Shown: positions 37,340 to 44,150 of the stretch, one piece after another | Layout: each line of letters begins with the position of its first letter | Numbering within the stretch: the first letter of the stretch is position 1 | NCBI RefSeq assembly: GCF_010993745.1 | Contig: NZ_WOTN01000002.1 | Coordinates: 1,302,001-1,366,000 of the forward strand | Length of the DNA: 64,000 nt | Reading direction: 5' to 3' | DNA from: Fodinicola acaciae | Lineage (GTDB): Bacteria; Actinomycetota; Actinomycetes; Mycobacteriales; HKI-0501 | Made by a program: the position numbers and the translations under genes | The notes under the pieces: model-generated | What the model was told of the DNA's origin: nothing | What the model saw: only the letters and a program-made list of their open reading frames with translations | The model's database searches: none

Positions 37340-40132
37340 ATGTCAGCACGCAAACCCAGAAGAGGGGCCGTACTGGCAAGCGTCTTGTTGGCCGTGGGGC
37401 TGTTACCCGCGGCCGCGTGGGGGACGAACACCAGTGGTGCCGACACGGTCCTCGGCAGCGCCACTGGCACGACCGAGCTGACCAAGGGCTGGACCGTACA
37501 GTCGTCCGCGGTGGCCAAGGAAACCGGCGACCAGGTCTCGCTGCCGGGCTATTCCACGGCCGGTTGGCTGAAGCTCTCCAAACCGGAGACACTGATGGCG
37601 GCACTGCTGGAAAACGGTCGCTATCCAGACATCTTCTATTCCAACAACCTCACCTCGGTGCCGACCGCGCAGTTCGACGTGAACTGGTGGTATCGCAACC
37701 AGCTCACCGTGCATCCGCGGCCGGGACAGCACACCTACCTGATCATGAACGGCATCTCCGGCCGCGCCAATCTCTGGGTCAACGGCAAGAAGGTCGCCGA
37801 CCAGGCGCAACTGCAGGGCTCGTACTCGCAGCTGGAATACGACATCACCTCACTGGTGACCAACGGATCCAACGCGATCGCGCTGGACGTCTACAAAAAC
37901 GACGACTCGAAATACCTGACCAGTGGCACGATCGACTGGAACCCTAAGGCGCCGGACCGCAACACCGGCCTGGTATTCGCGCCACAGCTGGCACAGGACG
38001 GTGCCATCTCGGTACGCGACACGCATGTGTTGCAGGACAACGCGAAGGATCTGAGCACCTCCGACCTCACCGTCAAGACCAACCTGCGCAACAACGCCGA
38101 CACGGCACAGACGGCCACCTTCGCCGGCACGATTTCGCGGCCAGGGACACGGATCCCGTTCGCGAAGAAGGTCACCGTGCCGGCCGGCAAGACGGTGACG
38201 GTGACGGTGACCAAGGCGGACGCGCCAGGTCTGCACATCGTACGTCCGGCGGTCTGGTGGCCATACCAGATGGGTGACCAGCCGCTTTATCACTTGGACA
38301 GCAACGCTTTCGCCAATGGCGAGCGTGCCGACGGCTATTCCACCGACTTCGGCATCCGTACGGTCACGTCGTATCTGACCAAGGTCGTCCCCGGAAAGAC
38401 GCACGGTCCGTACGGCTATCGGCAGTTCGTCATCAACGGTGTGCCGTTCGTGATCCGCGGTGGCGGCTGGTCGCCGGACATGTTCCTGCGCTATTCCGCG
38501 CAGAACATCGCCGACCAGATCAGCTACATCAAGAACCTCGGCCTGAACACGTTGCGGTTCGAGGGAAACTTCACGCCGGACGACATGCTGCGGCAGATGG
38601 ACCGTGCCGGCCTGCTGGCGATGGAAGGCTGGCAGTGCTGCGACCGCTGGGAGGACCCGTCCAAGACGTGGCCGGCCGAGCTGAAGGCAAACGCGGCCAA
38701 CCAGGCCTTCCACGTGGCCCAGATGCTCCGCGACCACCCGAGCGTTTTCACCTTCTACCACGGAAGTGACAACGAGCCGGACGCCGACAAGGAAGCCATC
38801 TACCTGACCGCGTTCACCGCCGCCGACTGGCAGACGCCACAGATCGCCAGCGCCGAATACAAGTCATCGGCCAAACTCGGGCCGTCCGGTTCGAAGGAAG
38901 GTCCGTACAACTACGTGCCGCCAAACTACTGGTGGGCCAACGGTACGCAGACCAAGCCGACCGACGACGACACCTTCACCAACGCCGGCAGTGCCTACGG
39001 TCTGGACACGGAGTCCAGCGCTGGCAACACGATCCCGACGACCAACTCGTTGAACCGGTTTCTGAGCAGCGCCGACCAGGACAAGATCTGGGACCTCAGC
39101 TCCACCAACGGCGGTGGCTCCGGGCCGGATATTTTCCACGTGTACAAATACAACAACTACACCAAGACCGGTCGGCTGGGTCAGTACAACACCCCGCTGT
39201 GGAACCGCTATGGCAAGTGGTCGGACCTCGCGTCGTACCAGCGGATCGCGCAGGTCGGCGAGTACGAGATCGCCCGCGCCCAGTTCGAGGCATATCTGGG
39301 AAACTCCAAGGACGAGGCCAACCCGAGCACCGGCCTGATCTACTGGATGATGAACAAGGCTTGGCCGTCGCTGCAGTGGAACATCTATGGCTATGACTTC
39401 GACCAGTCCGGTGTGTATTTCGGCACCAAGAAAGCCGGTGAGCCGGTGCATGTGATGTACGGCTACGACGACGGCTCGATCCGGGTGGCCAACCTGACCA
39501 ACGACCGGCAGTCCGGCCTGACGGCCACCGCGAAGTTCATCGACATCAACGGAAAGGTGCAGGGCACCAGCCAGGCGGCCGTGCCGGCGCTGTTCAGCCA
39601 GGACGTACGCACGGTGCTGATGCCCAAGGTGCCGGCGGGCATTTCCAAGACCTACTTCCTTGAGCTGACGCTGACTCGCGGCCACGCGGTGGTCAGCCGC
39701 AATGTCTACTGGCTGTCCACCAAGAAGGACGACATCGACTGGAAGAAGACGCTCGGCGAAGGTTTCGGTGTCACCTATGGCAGCGGCGGTTATGCCGACC
39801 TGACCGGGTTGCAAAACCTGGGAAAGGCGACGGTCAAGGCGGCCGCGCACACCAGGATCGAGGGCCGTGACGCGGTGACAACGGTGACGATCCGCAACGT
39901 CAGCGGCGACCGTACGCCGGCGTTCTTCACCCGTGCGGATGTGTTGCGTGCGAACGTTTCCGGTGACAACCAGGTGTTGCCGATCCAGTGGAGCGACAAC
40001 GAGGTCACGCTGTGGCCCGGTCAGCGCCAGACGATCACCGCGCGCTATCGGTTGTCGGAGCTGAAAGGTGCGAGCCCGCTGGTCAGCCTTTCCGGCTGGA
40101 ACATCGGGAACCAGACAGTGCGAGCTCGATAG
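37340..40132 (+). CDS. csxA: Secreted exo-beta-D-glucosaminidase (GH2, CsxA-like)
   Basis: Protein of 930 residues; the ATG follows AGGAGGGG. A Sec signal peptide ends near A-A-A-W-G. The whole chain parallels Amycolatopsis CsxA: sugar-binding beta domain (F-D-V-N-W-W-Y-R-N-Q-L), immunoglobulin-like domain, TIM barrel (V-I-R-G-G-G-W-S-P-D-M-F-L-R, G-W-Q-C-C-D-R-W-E) and two C-terminal beta domains. The GH2 subgroup's acid Asp is in Y-H-G-S-D-N-E-P-D and the nucleophile Glu in D-T-E-S-S-A-G. It should remove glucosamine units from the non-reducing end of chitosan oligomers outside the cell (EC 3.2.1.165). C-terminal carbohydrate-binding modules present in some relatives are absent. Confidence 0.92.
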   Translation: MSARKPRRGAVLASVLLAVGLLPAAAWGTNTSGADTVLGSATGTTELTKGWTVQSSAVAKETGDQVSLPGYSTAGWLKLSKPETLMAALLENGRYPDIFYSNNLTSVPTAQFDVNWWYRNQLTVHPRPGQHTYLIMNGISGRANLWVNGKKVADQAQLQGSYSQLEYDITSLVTNGSNAIALDVYKNDDSKYLTSGTIDWNPKAPDRNTGLVFAPQLAQDGAISVRDTHVLQDNAKDLSTSDLTVKTNLRNNADTAQTATFAGTISRPGTRIPFAKKVTVPAGKTVTVTVTKADAPGLHIVRPAVWWPYQMGDQPLYHLDSNAFANGERADGYSTDFGIRTVTSYLTKVVPGKTHGPYGYRQFVINGVPFVIRGGGWSPDMFLRYSAQNIADQISYIKNLGLNTLRFEGNFTPDDMLRQMDRAGLLAMEGWQCCDRWEDPSKTWPAELKANAANQAFHVAQMLRDHPSVFTFYHGSDNEPDADKEAIYLTAFTAADWQTPQIASAEYKSSAKLGPSGSKEGPYNYVPPNYWWANGTQTKPTDDDTFTNAGSAYGLDTESSAGNTIPTTNSLNRFLSSADQDKIWDLSSTNGGGSGPDIFHVYKYNNYTKTGRLGQYNTPLWNRYGKWSDLASYQRIAQVGEYEIARAQFEAYLGNSKDEANPSTGLIYWMMNKAWPSLQWNIYGYDFDQSGVYFGTKKAGEPVHVMYGYDDGSIRVANLTNDRQSGLTATAKFIDINGKVQGTSQAAVPALFSQDVRTVLMPKVPAGISKTYFLELTLTRGHAVVSRNVYWLSTKKDDIDWKKTLGEGFGVTYGSGGYADLTGLQNLGKATVKAAAHTRIEGRDAVTTVTIRNVSGDRTPAFFTRADVLRANVSGDNQVLPIQWSDNEVTLWPGQRQTITARYRLSELKGASPLVSLSGWNIGNQTVRAR

Positions 40133-40668: not shown

Positions 40669-41580
40669 CTATCTCCCGGCCAGATACGCGGCCAAGCCGT
40701 CAAGGTGTTGCCGCAGGCCAAACTCGAAAAGTGCGTCGATGTCGCTGGCCTCCTCGTCGGTGACCTGGAGCGTTGCGACCAACGGGAAACGGCCACCCGC
40801 GAAGATCTCGTCGACCAGCGGCTGCAGCCGGCCCCACTTCTGTTCGGTGCTGACACCGGAGTTCAGCTGGTTTTCCAGCTCGATGCCGCGGCTGAGCGCC
40901 AGGCCGCCCACGTAGACGTGCACGCTGGTGATCGCTCGCAGTTTCTCCAGGTCTGACAGCGCCAGGCCGGCCATCCCGTGGAGTTCCCATTCCACCTGGG
41001 AAATGCCGCTCGGCAGCAGCGGTGGCCGGCTGATCGAGCCGAGGATCACCGAGGCGGCCCAGGGGTGGCGGCGATACGTCCGCCAATGCAGACGCGCGAC
41101 GGCGTCGAGGTGCGCCCGCCAGCCGGCCGGCCGGGGATCTGGCAGCGGCTCGGCGCCGAGCACGGTGTTGGCCATCCGCCGCTCGAGTTCTTCTTTGCTT
41201 GGCACGTAATGGTAGAGCGACATCGTGCCGACACCGAGGTCGGCGGCGATCCGGCGCATGGAAAGCGCTGACAGGCCTTCCGCGTCGGCCAGTGCGATGC
41301 CGGCGCGTACGACCGCGTCCACCGTCAAGGTGGGTGATGCCAAGGATTTCGCCAGCGGCGGCGGCGTACGCACCGCCGTCCCGGCTCCGGGCCGGGTCTC
41401 GACGAGTTCTTGCTGCCGCAGCCAGCTGAGCACCTTCGTCGCCGTCGCCATCGCGACACCCCAGTCCGCGGCGATCCGCCGCGTCGACGGCACCCGGTCT
41501 CCGGGTCGCAGCTCACCGCTCTCGATCTGCCGGCGGATTTCCTTGCCGATGACCACATACGGTGGATCGTCCGTCGCCAT
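40669..41580 (-). CDS. GntR-TetR fused transcriptional regulator
   Basis: Protein of 303 residues with two DNA-binding domains. Residues about 5-75 are a GntR winged helix (G-D-R-V-P-S-T-R-R-I-A-A-D-W-G-V-A-M-A-T). Residues about 85-135 are a TetR helix-turn-helix (S-M-R-R-I-A-A-D-L-G-V-G-T-M-S-L-Y-H-Y-V), followed by the TetR_C_1 ligand-binding helices to the end. The ATG follows GAGGAG. A pair of identical 14-bp sites lies just upstream (41593-41639), suggesting autoregulation and control of the divergent DUF2306 gene. Ligand unknown; TetR_C_1 members often respond to drug-like molecules. Confidence 0.88.
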   Translation of the reverse strand: MATDDPPYVVIGKEIRRQIESGELRPGDRVPSTRRIAADWGVAMATATKVLSWLRQQELVETRPGAGTAVRTPPPLAKSLASPTLTVDAVVRAGIALADAEGLSALSMRRIAADLGVGTMSLYHYVPSKEELERRMANTVLGAEPLPDPRPAGWRAHLDAVARLHWRTYRRHPWAASVILGSISRPPLLPSGISQVEWELHGMAGLALSDLEKLRAITSVHVYVGGLALSRGIELENQLNSGVSTEQKWGRLQPLVDEIFAGGRFPLVATLQVTDEEASDIDALFEFGLRQHLDGLAAYLAGR

Positions 41581-41592
41581 CGTCGTCTCCTC

Positions 41593-41639
41593 GCGTACTA
41601 GTGCGCTTTGCGTCTGACCATATCAGCGTACTAGTGCGC
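41593..41639. promoter_or_regulatory. Twin operator, two copies of GCGTACTAGTGCGC
   Basis: Two identical, near-palindromic 14-bp sites (41593-41606 and 41626-41639) start exactly 33 bp apart, three helical turns. They lie in the divergent promoter region between the GntR-TetR regulator (minus) and the DUF2306 gene (plus). A minus-strand -10-like TGATAT sits between them. Confidence 0.7.
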
Positions 41640-41738
41640 ACTGCTACCTGAGGCGTAGTTTCTGCTTGCTGTCGCGGCAAAAGGCGATCGCGTTGGTACG
41701 GTGTACGAACAATCGGCCGGACCAGAGGATCGGGACGT

Positions 41739-42407
41739 ATGACGACCACAGTTCAGGGAAAGTCCATCGCGGCGGGACCCCGGCGGTCCTGGTGGCGCCG
41801 GCCGTGGATCGTGCCGTTGGCCTTGCTGGCGTTGCTGTTCCTCGCCTTCTCGTTGCCGCCGTACGCGACGCTCAATCCGGCGCTTTCGCGCGTCCCATCC
41901 TCGTTTCCGTTGCACTATCCGCTGTTGGTCGCGCACGTCGGCTTTGCCACGGTCGCGATGGTGACCTGTTGTTTCCAGGTGTGGCCGTGGTTTCGGCAGC
42001 ACTATCCGGTGGCGCACCGCTGGCTCGGCCGGACGTACGTCTTCGCCGGTGTGTTGCCGGCTGGACTATGCGGCCTGATCATCGGCGCGGGCACGCCATT
42101 TGGCCTCGTCGCCGCCGGAAGTGACATCTCGCTCGCGTTGTTGTGGCTGTTCTGCACGATGGCCGGCTATCGCATGGCGCGGCGGCGCCGCTTCGCCGAT
42201 CACCGGCGCTGGATGATCCGCAGCTTCGCGCTCACGTTTTCCATCATCACCAACAGGATCTGGGGGATCATCCTGTTCATTGTGTTCCTGCCGCAGGCGA
42301 CCGGACCGGAGGCGGCACAGCAGATCGGTCCGCTCGGCGCTTGGCTGGGCTGGACGACCGTGTTGCTGTTCACCGAATGGTGGCTGGTCGAACGCCGGAA
42401 AGCCTAG
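41739..42407 (+). CDS. DUF2306 membrane protein
   Basis: Protein of 222 residues with six predicted helices. H-Y-P-L-L-V-A-H-V-G-F-A-T and V-A-H-R-W-L-G-R-T-Y-V, then F-A-D-H-R-R-W-M-I-R-S-F-A-L-T-F, are the conserved histidine segments of DUF2306; they may bind heme. No enzymatic activity is established for the family. The twin operator and divergent GntR-TetR regulator upstream suggest it is the regulated target. Its TAG lies in the terminator palindrome. Confidence 0.83.
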   Translation: MTTTVQGKSIAAGPRRSWWRRPWIVPLALLALLFLAFSLPPYATLNPALSRVPSSFPLHYPLLVAHVGFATVAMVTCCFQVWPWFRQHYPVAHRWLGRTYVFAGVLPAGLCGLIIGAGTPFGLVAAGSDISLALLWLFCTMAGYRMARRRRFADHRRWMIRSFALTFSIITNRIWGIILFIVFLPQATGPEAAQQIGPLGAWLGWTTVLLFTEWWLVERRKA

Positions 42408-43523: not shown

Positions 43524-44150
43524 GTGTCGCTGCGCCACGCGTTGCTCGCTTTGCTGGAGGCCGAGCCGATGAGCGGTTACAGCCTGGCCAGGTTTTTCGA
43601 GCAGTCGGTGGCCTACGTCTGGCACGCACCGCATTCGCAGATTTATCCGGAGCTGCGGCGGATGCACGAGGCGGGGCTGATTTCCGGCCGGTCGGAAGCG
43701 CGCGGCACCCACGCGACCAAGACGATTTACACGCTCACCAAAGAAGGACGCGCGGAGTTGGCGCGCTGGGTCGAGGAGGTCACGCCGTCGCAGCGCGAAC
43801 GGGACGCCGGCTATCTCAAGGCGAGCTATCTGGAATACGCCAGCTTTGCCAGTGCGCGCAAGCAGTTTGAGGCACACCGCGCGCATCACGAGGAACAGCG
43901 GCGGCGCTGGGAGGCGCACGTACGCAACCTGGAAAACCGCGACACCGACCTGCTGCGCATCCGGCTCGCGCAAAACGCTGAGCTGGCCGACGCGGTGGTC
44001 GCGTACAAGGTGCACGTCTATCACGGCCTCATCGACCGTGCGAAACACGAAGTCCGCTGGGCCACCGCCGGCCTGAAGCTGGTCGACGAGCTGGAAGCCG
44101 GATTTCGCGCCGGAAAGAAGGCGGCGCCGCGCAAACGCAGGACCGGATAG
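43524..44150 (+). CDS. PadR-family transcriptional regulator
   Basis: Protein of 208 residues from GTG 43524 with GGAGGAG upstream. The N-terminal winged helix has L-R-H-A-L-L-A-L-L-E-A-E-P-M-S-G-Y-S-L-A and Q-I-Y-P-E-L-R-R-M-H-E-A-G-L-I, diagnostic of PadR. The C-terminal half is a helical Vir_act_alpha_C-type dimerisation domain, with a basic tail K-K-A-A-P-R-K-R-R. It is likely to control the divergent gene for the dihydroxyphthalate decarboxylase-like protein, as PadR classically does for phenolic acid decarboxylase. Confidence 0.85.
   Translation: MSLRHALLALLEAEPMSGYSLARFFEQSVAYVWHAPHSQIYPELRRMHEAGLISGRSEARGTHATKTIYTLTKEGRAELARWVEEVTPSQRERDAGYLKASYLEYASFASARKQFEAHRAHHEEQRRRWEAHVRNLENRDTDLLRIRLAQNAELADAVVAYKVHVYHGLIDRAKHEVRWATAGLKLVDELEAGFRAGKKAAPRKRRTG

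Follow-up and report, generated by a model that had tools for sequence, protein, structure and literature searches.

A regulator with fused GntR and TetR DNA-binding heads and two types of predicted operators in Actinomycetes

A gene of Fodinicola acaciae encodes a regulator that joins two DNA-binding heads of different families, GntR and TetR, in a single chain, and the region upstream of this and of related fused genes contains two types of palindromic sites, which we refer to as A and B. In the 64,000-nucleotide stretch of contig NZ_WOTN01000002.1 analyzed here (the window), two copies of B are located at the start of the regulator gene and a single A site precedes the divergent gene (Table 1). 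Among the relatives, B in its strict form occurs with fused regulators only whereas A is found in fused and TetR-only loci, which suggests that the GntR head acts on B and the TetR head on A. As judged from the sequence, both twin B sites are most likely read by the GntR head, with the TetR head most likely reading the third site, GTACGGTGTAC, and we consider it probable that the protein is a ligand-controlled repressor that employs its TetR head on the target and its GntR head for autoregulation.

Table 1. Features of the regulator gene, its predicted operators and the divergent gene (positions in the window).
Feature	Position	Strand	Basis
GntR-TetR fused one-component regulator	40669..41580	-	ORF, 303 aa; Pfam GntR + TetR_N + TetR_C_1
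GntR winged-helix head, N-terminal, residues 8-70	41371..41559	-	Pfam PF00392, E 4.6e-14
TetR helix-turn-helix head, residues 92-132	41185..41307	-	Pfam PF00440, E 1.2e-8
TetR_C_1 ligand-binding/dimerisation domain, residues 147-298	40687..41142	-	Pfam PF02909, E 1.1e-15
GAGGAG, Shine-Dalgarno-like sequence of regulator gene	41587..41592	-	direct sequence reading
Operator B1 (predicted), GCGTACTAGTGCGC, adjoins the regulator's GAGGAG	41593..41606		sequence and B motif in relatives
Operator B2 (predicted), GCGTACTAGTGCGC, 33 bp from B1	41626..41639		sequence and B motif in relatives
Operator A (predicted), TTGGTACGGTGTACGAA, core GTACGGTGTAC 41696-41706	41693..41709		GTAC-N3-GTAC also in TetR-only relatives
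DUF2306 membrane-protein gene, divergent, presumed target	41739..42407	+	Pfam PF10067, E 2.5e-25

The presence of both DNA-binding domains in one chain, as proposed in the preliminary description of this locus, is borne out by Pfam matches above the curated cut-offs, with 52.3 bits for GntR (cut-off 27), 35 bits for TetR_N (cut-off 24) and 58.2 bits for TetR_C_1 (cut-off 21). The regulator contains the N-terminal winged helix that characterizes the GntR family (PF00392) as well as the domains of a TetR protein of the TetR_C_1 or SimR/ActR type (PF00440 and PF02909). An effector domain of the FadR, HutC, MocR, YtrA, AraR or PlmA type is absent, the remaining chain consisting of TetR_N and TetR_C_1. 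NCBIfam models of GntR subfamilies match only the head and remain below cut-off; the HutC and PdxR models align partially, over their N-terminal parts, at scores far below the curated cut-offs. In a model of the regulator predicted by AlphaFold2 from an input of 65 fused sequences (mean pLDDT 94.1, pTM 0.73), both heads are confidently folded, the linker between them is of low confidence (pLDDT 66 in the block 71-80), and the fold resembles that of SimR and ActR. This linker comprises 15 residues in the window's protein and 10-38 residues across the 65 proteins of a set (A3) that combines 64 of our named loci (from the best 80 of 404 matches) with the window; another set (A1) comprises 14 of 17 fused loci. 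Within the GntR head, the helix positions A43, A45, T46 and A47 are invariant across the 65 fused proteins. In the recognition helix of the TetR head, residues 124-125 differ between fused and TetR-only proteins, with position 124 being an Arg in 96% of 97 fused and a Thr in 73% of 52 TetR-only proteins, thus indicating that the specificity of this head may have shifted. The window's regulator carries a His at this position.

Upstream of the gene, we find the two identical near-palindromic sites that had been noted previously, at the described distance of 33 bp from start to start. B1 is placed directly upstream of the GAGGAG sequence, with its center some 20 nt before the start codon, and a scan of 41500-41800 found no sigma-70-like promoter. 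A search of the genome for the 14-mer, suggested in the preliminary description, located exact copies only at these two sites of the same promoter region in 8.86 Mb (8,860,993 bases). With up to three mismatches there are 13 matches in the 64-kb window versus 10.7 expected, and with up to one mismatch five strand-matches in the whole genome versus eight for the reversed pattern. The motif is thus neither rare nor enriched at loose stringency and it is the exact 14-mer that is special. The genome contains four occurrences of the 10-bp core GYACTAGTRC, including B1 and B2, and the reversed core used as control matches 72 times per strand. As genomes of this kind are generally poor in CTAG, this control is a generous one. 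A matrix derived from relatives gives both sites of the window 18.5 bits, with the runner-up within the 64 kb reaching 6.5 bits. The two further occurrences of the core (L186, G000:C1:2295010, and L187, G000:C2:958440) presumably precede pdxS in one case and, in the other, a PaiB-like gene oriented convergently to one of the MocR type. The sequence GTACTAGTAC is found in front of pdxS in this genome and in a same-genus genome and in none of 28 other genomes (30 loci examined, from 58 genomes with a match). The idea that B is tied to the genes of vitamin B6 was not borne out, the pdxS site being confined to two genomes of a single genus among the 30. Another observation concerns CTAGTGCACTAG, which, according to the accessible part of the respective article, forms part of a gel-shift fragment assayed with Rv0081 (PMC6177252).

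The relationship between B and the fused architecture emerges from a scan of genome contigs, in which we have named the best 80 of 404 matches across GntR and TetR parts. These 80 fused loci are all from Actinomycetes and represent seven orders with 27 genera. In a sample of 296 genomes of the phylum, 4 (the window's own among them) yielded a full-length match at E 1e-45. By a strict definition (CTAGTRC on either strand in the 300 bp upstream), B precedes 75 of the 80 fused genes (best 80 of 404), with a mean of 4.5 and a maximum of 12 in 200 Markov shuffles, and 20 of 21 further fused loci outside the 80. Among 52 TetR-only relatives, which share 33-43% identity with the window's protein in the TetR part, none has strict B upstream, and neither does any of the 26 members of a second TetR-only set, six of which repeat the first, amounting to 0 of 72 distinct loci with both sets pooled. 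One locus (L162) was dropped from the tallies (TetR-only 53 examined, 52 counted; further fused 22 examined, 21 counted), its removal from the TetR-only set being a consequence of a GntR match upstream. The earlier proposal of two different domains facing two identical sites is not supported by these results, as both sites belong to the type that accompanies the fusion (75 of the best 80 of 404 loci) and is absent from the 72 TetR-only loci.

The same association is obtained with other measures. In a leave-one-out matrix analysis, at least one B is present in 77 and at least two in 69 of the 80 fused regions (best 80 of 404), with 6 of 52 TetR-only regions passing the same low threshold. A de novo search for 7-mers enriched in the 300 bp upstream of the fused genes (best 80 of 404) places words of B on top, with CTAGTGC found in 59 of the 80 regions (3.1 expected) and ACTAGTG in 52 (1.3 expected), and words of A further down (GCGTACA in 35, 6.2 expected; GGTGTAC in 28, 3.7 expected). 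The consensus GYACTAGTRC, compiled from 133 sites in these best 80 of 404 loci and with one half fixed by the search pattern, corresponds to a palindromic GT...AC operator of the GntR type, which makes the GntR head its probable reader. Within 600 bp upstream (best 80 of 404 loci), the centers of the 133 strict sites distribute as 84, 36, 10 and 3 per 50-bp bin, with none at 200-600 bp, and the first 900 bp of the fused genes contain nine matches. The median distance of B to the start codon in fused relatives is 19 nt.

Strict B is missing in five of the best 80 of 404 fused loci. In two of them (L073 and L111), a same-strand frame of 432 or 440 codons ends 15-22 bp before the start of the regulator, as in an operon, and these genes may thus have no promoter of their own. 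A third (L091) carries a degenerate site, and for the remaining two (L072 and L102) no explanation was found. In addition, a fused gene with an altered helix in its GntR head (L144, VAHATATKAL) contains neither A nor B upstream, possibly reflecting a head with a new specificity. We have also considered B as a general GntR motif and discarded this idea in light of its absence from all 17 GntR-only relatives, although their heads, being at most 55% identical, provide a weak control, and this result (0 of 17) lends no support to a dependence of B on the GntR head by itself.

The A site has a different distribution. The predicted core GTACGGTGTAC, with its center 38 bp before the DUF2306 start codon, would constitute the short palindromic operator between divergent genes that is typical of the TetR family. 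The preliminary description correctly encompassed the regulator and the twin sites within 40669-41639 but stopped short of this core at 41696-41706. Defined strictly as GTAC-N2-4-GTAC with the exclusion of sites containing CTAG, A is present in 37 of the 80 fused loci (best 80 of 404; shuffle mean 1.5, maximum 5) and in 24 of 52 TetR-only relatives (shuffle mean 0.8, maximum 4). If one mismatch is allowed, these numbers increase to 64 of the best 80 of 404 (Markov mean 9.4) and 43 of 52 (Markov mean 4.8). In a tally of GTAC pairs with gaps of 0-5, the half-sites are separated by 3 bp in 45 of 48 pairs from fused loci (best 80 of 404) and in 41 of 48 TetR-only pairs. No strict A was detected in 43 of the 80 named loci (best 80 of 404) and in 15 of the 21 further fused ones. 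In fused loci (best 80 of 404), the centers of A peak 100-150 bp upstream of the regulator, and wherever both types coincide, the nearest B is closer to the regulator than A (37 of 37 loci), with A situated beyond all B sites in 35 of 37 cases, thus placing the two types at opposite ends of the region.

The fused proteins appear to share a single origin. In a tree of 54 TetR parts, containing 28 fused and 26 TetR-only rows in a random subset from which 13 long or repeated TetR-only rows had been removed beforehand, all 28 fused rows form one clade (support 99/94), and no natural loss of the GntR head was found within the fused clade of this 54-row tree. Larger quick trees required two changes, which we attribute to a row on a long branch (L115). 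With a single fused clade, the link between fusion and B is a clade-wide association of one origin rather than the result of repeated gains.

The divergent genes provide a view of the likely targets. Five fused regulators (L036, L037, L038, L040 and L043) face divergent genes whose products share 54-60% identity with the DUF2306 protein of the window. Among 79 divergent proteins, 78 from the named loci (best 80 of 404) and the window's, where the choice of frame in 78 of 80 loci relied on length and codon G+C and may be wrong in some cases, Pfam matches include FAD_binding_3 (38), MFS_1 (9), DUF2306 (6), ABC_tran (5) and COesterase (4). The commonest partners of fused regulators in these best 80 of 404 loci are thus FAD-binding enzymes, transporters or DUF2306 genes, which would fit a TetR-type control of detoxification or transport. 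A same-genus relative has retained a DUF2306-like divergent ORF and carries an A-type GTACAGCGTAC at the corresponding position together with B sites that are 83-99 bp apart. The closest relative of the regulator, in the same-genus genome (L016 / L117 / L251), neighbors a DUF2306 gene and spans more than one reading frame, either because the gene is broken or due to an error in the assembly. Other genes in the vicinity include one for a PadR-family regulator (Pfam) at 43524-44150 of the window, which is unrelated as far as seen, and, at 37340-40132, one encoding a member of glycoside hydrolase family 2 (930 aa) that contains an exo-beta-D-glucosaminidase Ig domain.

In the mechanism that we favor, the chain would present two DNA-reading heads of different families on a short linker and dimerize via a TetR C-terminal domain of the SimR/ActR type. 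Bound to operator A, the TetR head would repress the divergent DUF2306 gene until a small molecule in the C-terminal pocket ends this repression, and the GntR head bound to the twin B operators, which are placed between the ribosome-binding site of the regulator and the region upstream, would repress the regulator's own gene. The absence of strict A from many fused loci, the five loci lacking strict B, the lack of both sites at L144 with its altered head, the difference at residue 124, the single origin, the 17 GntR-only relatives devoid of B and the negative sigma-70 promoter scan of 41500-41800 count against this model. As an extension, a ligand might free the TetR head from the target operator only, with the GntR head staying on B, which would keep the regulator level fixed and the protein tethered near the target promoter for fast re-repression. 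This extension is speculative, and if it were true, such a two-headed design would be used by a whole clade of actinomycetes. TetR repressors usually serve their target and their own gene with a single head, which couples induction to autoregulation. A naturally occurring repressor whose two heads each have an operator of their own would separate both processes directly, and the fused regulators would supply ready-made orthogonal operator pairs for testing this uncoupling and for building sensors. Moreover, DUF2306, a domain of unknown function, would gain a regulatory handle.

A different arrangement, where one dimer has to hold A and B simultaneously and thereby loops the divergent intergenic DNA, would make the spacing of the sites mechanically important and comes closest to the preliminary description. 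Both types share one intergenic region (158 bp in the window), and simultaneous binding is conceivable for a dimer whose chains each carry two heads, yet the geometry renders this bivalent binding unlikely. The 58 gaps between strict B sites (best 80 of 404 loci) cover 8-100 bp, with none at 33 bp and two at 31-35 bp. In the 101 gaps defined by the matrix (best 80 of 404 loci), we find no periodicity at 10.5 bp (R = 0.06), and a value of R = 0.22 at 11.5 bp. The distance from A to B differs from locus to locus, and so does the length of the linker in the 65 proteins. Collectively, the varied gaps, the lack of phasing and the varied linker argue against a rigid two-site ruler, and we have thus abandoned the fixed ruler of three helical turns, a spacing to which the preliminary description had ascribed a meaning.

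The difference at recognition-helix residues 124-125 and the 43 of 80 fused loci (best 80 of 404) without strict A could also be accounted for if the TetR head of the fused clade had switched its specificity to B, leaving the GntR head as an accessory or as the reader of A. Such a switch is improbable in light of the equal enrichment of A in both fused and TetR-only relatives, where the 3-bp gap is the same, the lack of B in all 72 distinct loci that have no GntR head and the resemblance of B to the GntR-type palindrome NyGTNxACNy, as given in the accessible part of the source (PMC4494728). Even less credence is given to B as a promoter or other element for an unrelated factor that acts independently of the fused regulator. 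Its position at the edge of the promoter and ribosome-binding site of the regulator, at the short median distance given above, would be in line with this role, and so would the same core in front of pdxS and of the PaiB-like gene near the MocR gene in this genome. However, B is absent in the 72 TetR-only loci, 46 of which are from the window's own order, as well as upstream of the 17 GntR-only relatives, and pdxS carries the core in only the two genomes of one genus.

Solved relatives cover one part of the regulator each, with SimR and ActR corresponding to the TetR part and a plasmid-type repressor and other GntR proteins to the head, and none of the 37 solved sequences listed spans both whole parts. 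SimR is the closest solved relative by sequence (E 5.1e-28, residues 80-300 of the regulator) and also accounts for the seven best solved chains in a Foldseek comparison with the fold of the model. In a Streptomyces, it acts as a ligand-released repressor of the divergent efflux gene simX with two intergenic operators, as described in the available portion of the article (PMC5812520). On this basis, both systems share the TetR_C_1 type and a divergent gene pair with known or predicted operators in the intergenic region, whereas SimR lacks the GntR domain. The winged helix at the N-terminus is a feature shared with GntR-family regulators such as HutC, YtrA and MocR/PdxR, whose operators are, in the part of the source at hand, of the palindromic GT...AC type (PMC4494728). 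In these proteins the partner is a UTRA, FCD or aminotransferase domain, whereas in the window it is a complete TetR repressor.

The searched literature, whose coverage excludes most subscription journals, contains no natural GntR-TetR fusion, although protein databases may well annotate the architecture. The only such fusion encountered is an engineered one, the gluconate switches that combine both proteins in one chain in mammalian cells (PMC10450161). As far as the accessible text of this source extends, these differ from the window's regulator in being man-made and in using the whole GntR protein as a gluconate-driven dimerization module. The nearest natural analogue that we met is Mce3R, which, according to the available sections of its description, is an autoregulated double TetR protein of a single chain with two non-identical helix-turn-helix motifs and two operator sites 53 bp apart, and whose halves jointly bind one asymmetric 25-bp site (PMC11667970). 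The likeness, within the limits of that text, concerns the two different DNA-binding motifs in one chain, together with the paired operator sites and the autoregulation proposed for the window's regulator. Both halves of Mce3R are of the TetR type, whereas the heads of the window's regulator belong to two families and would engage two different palindromes.
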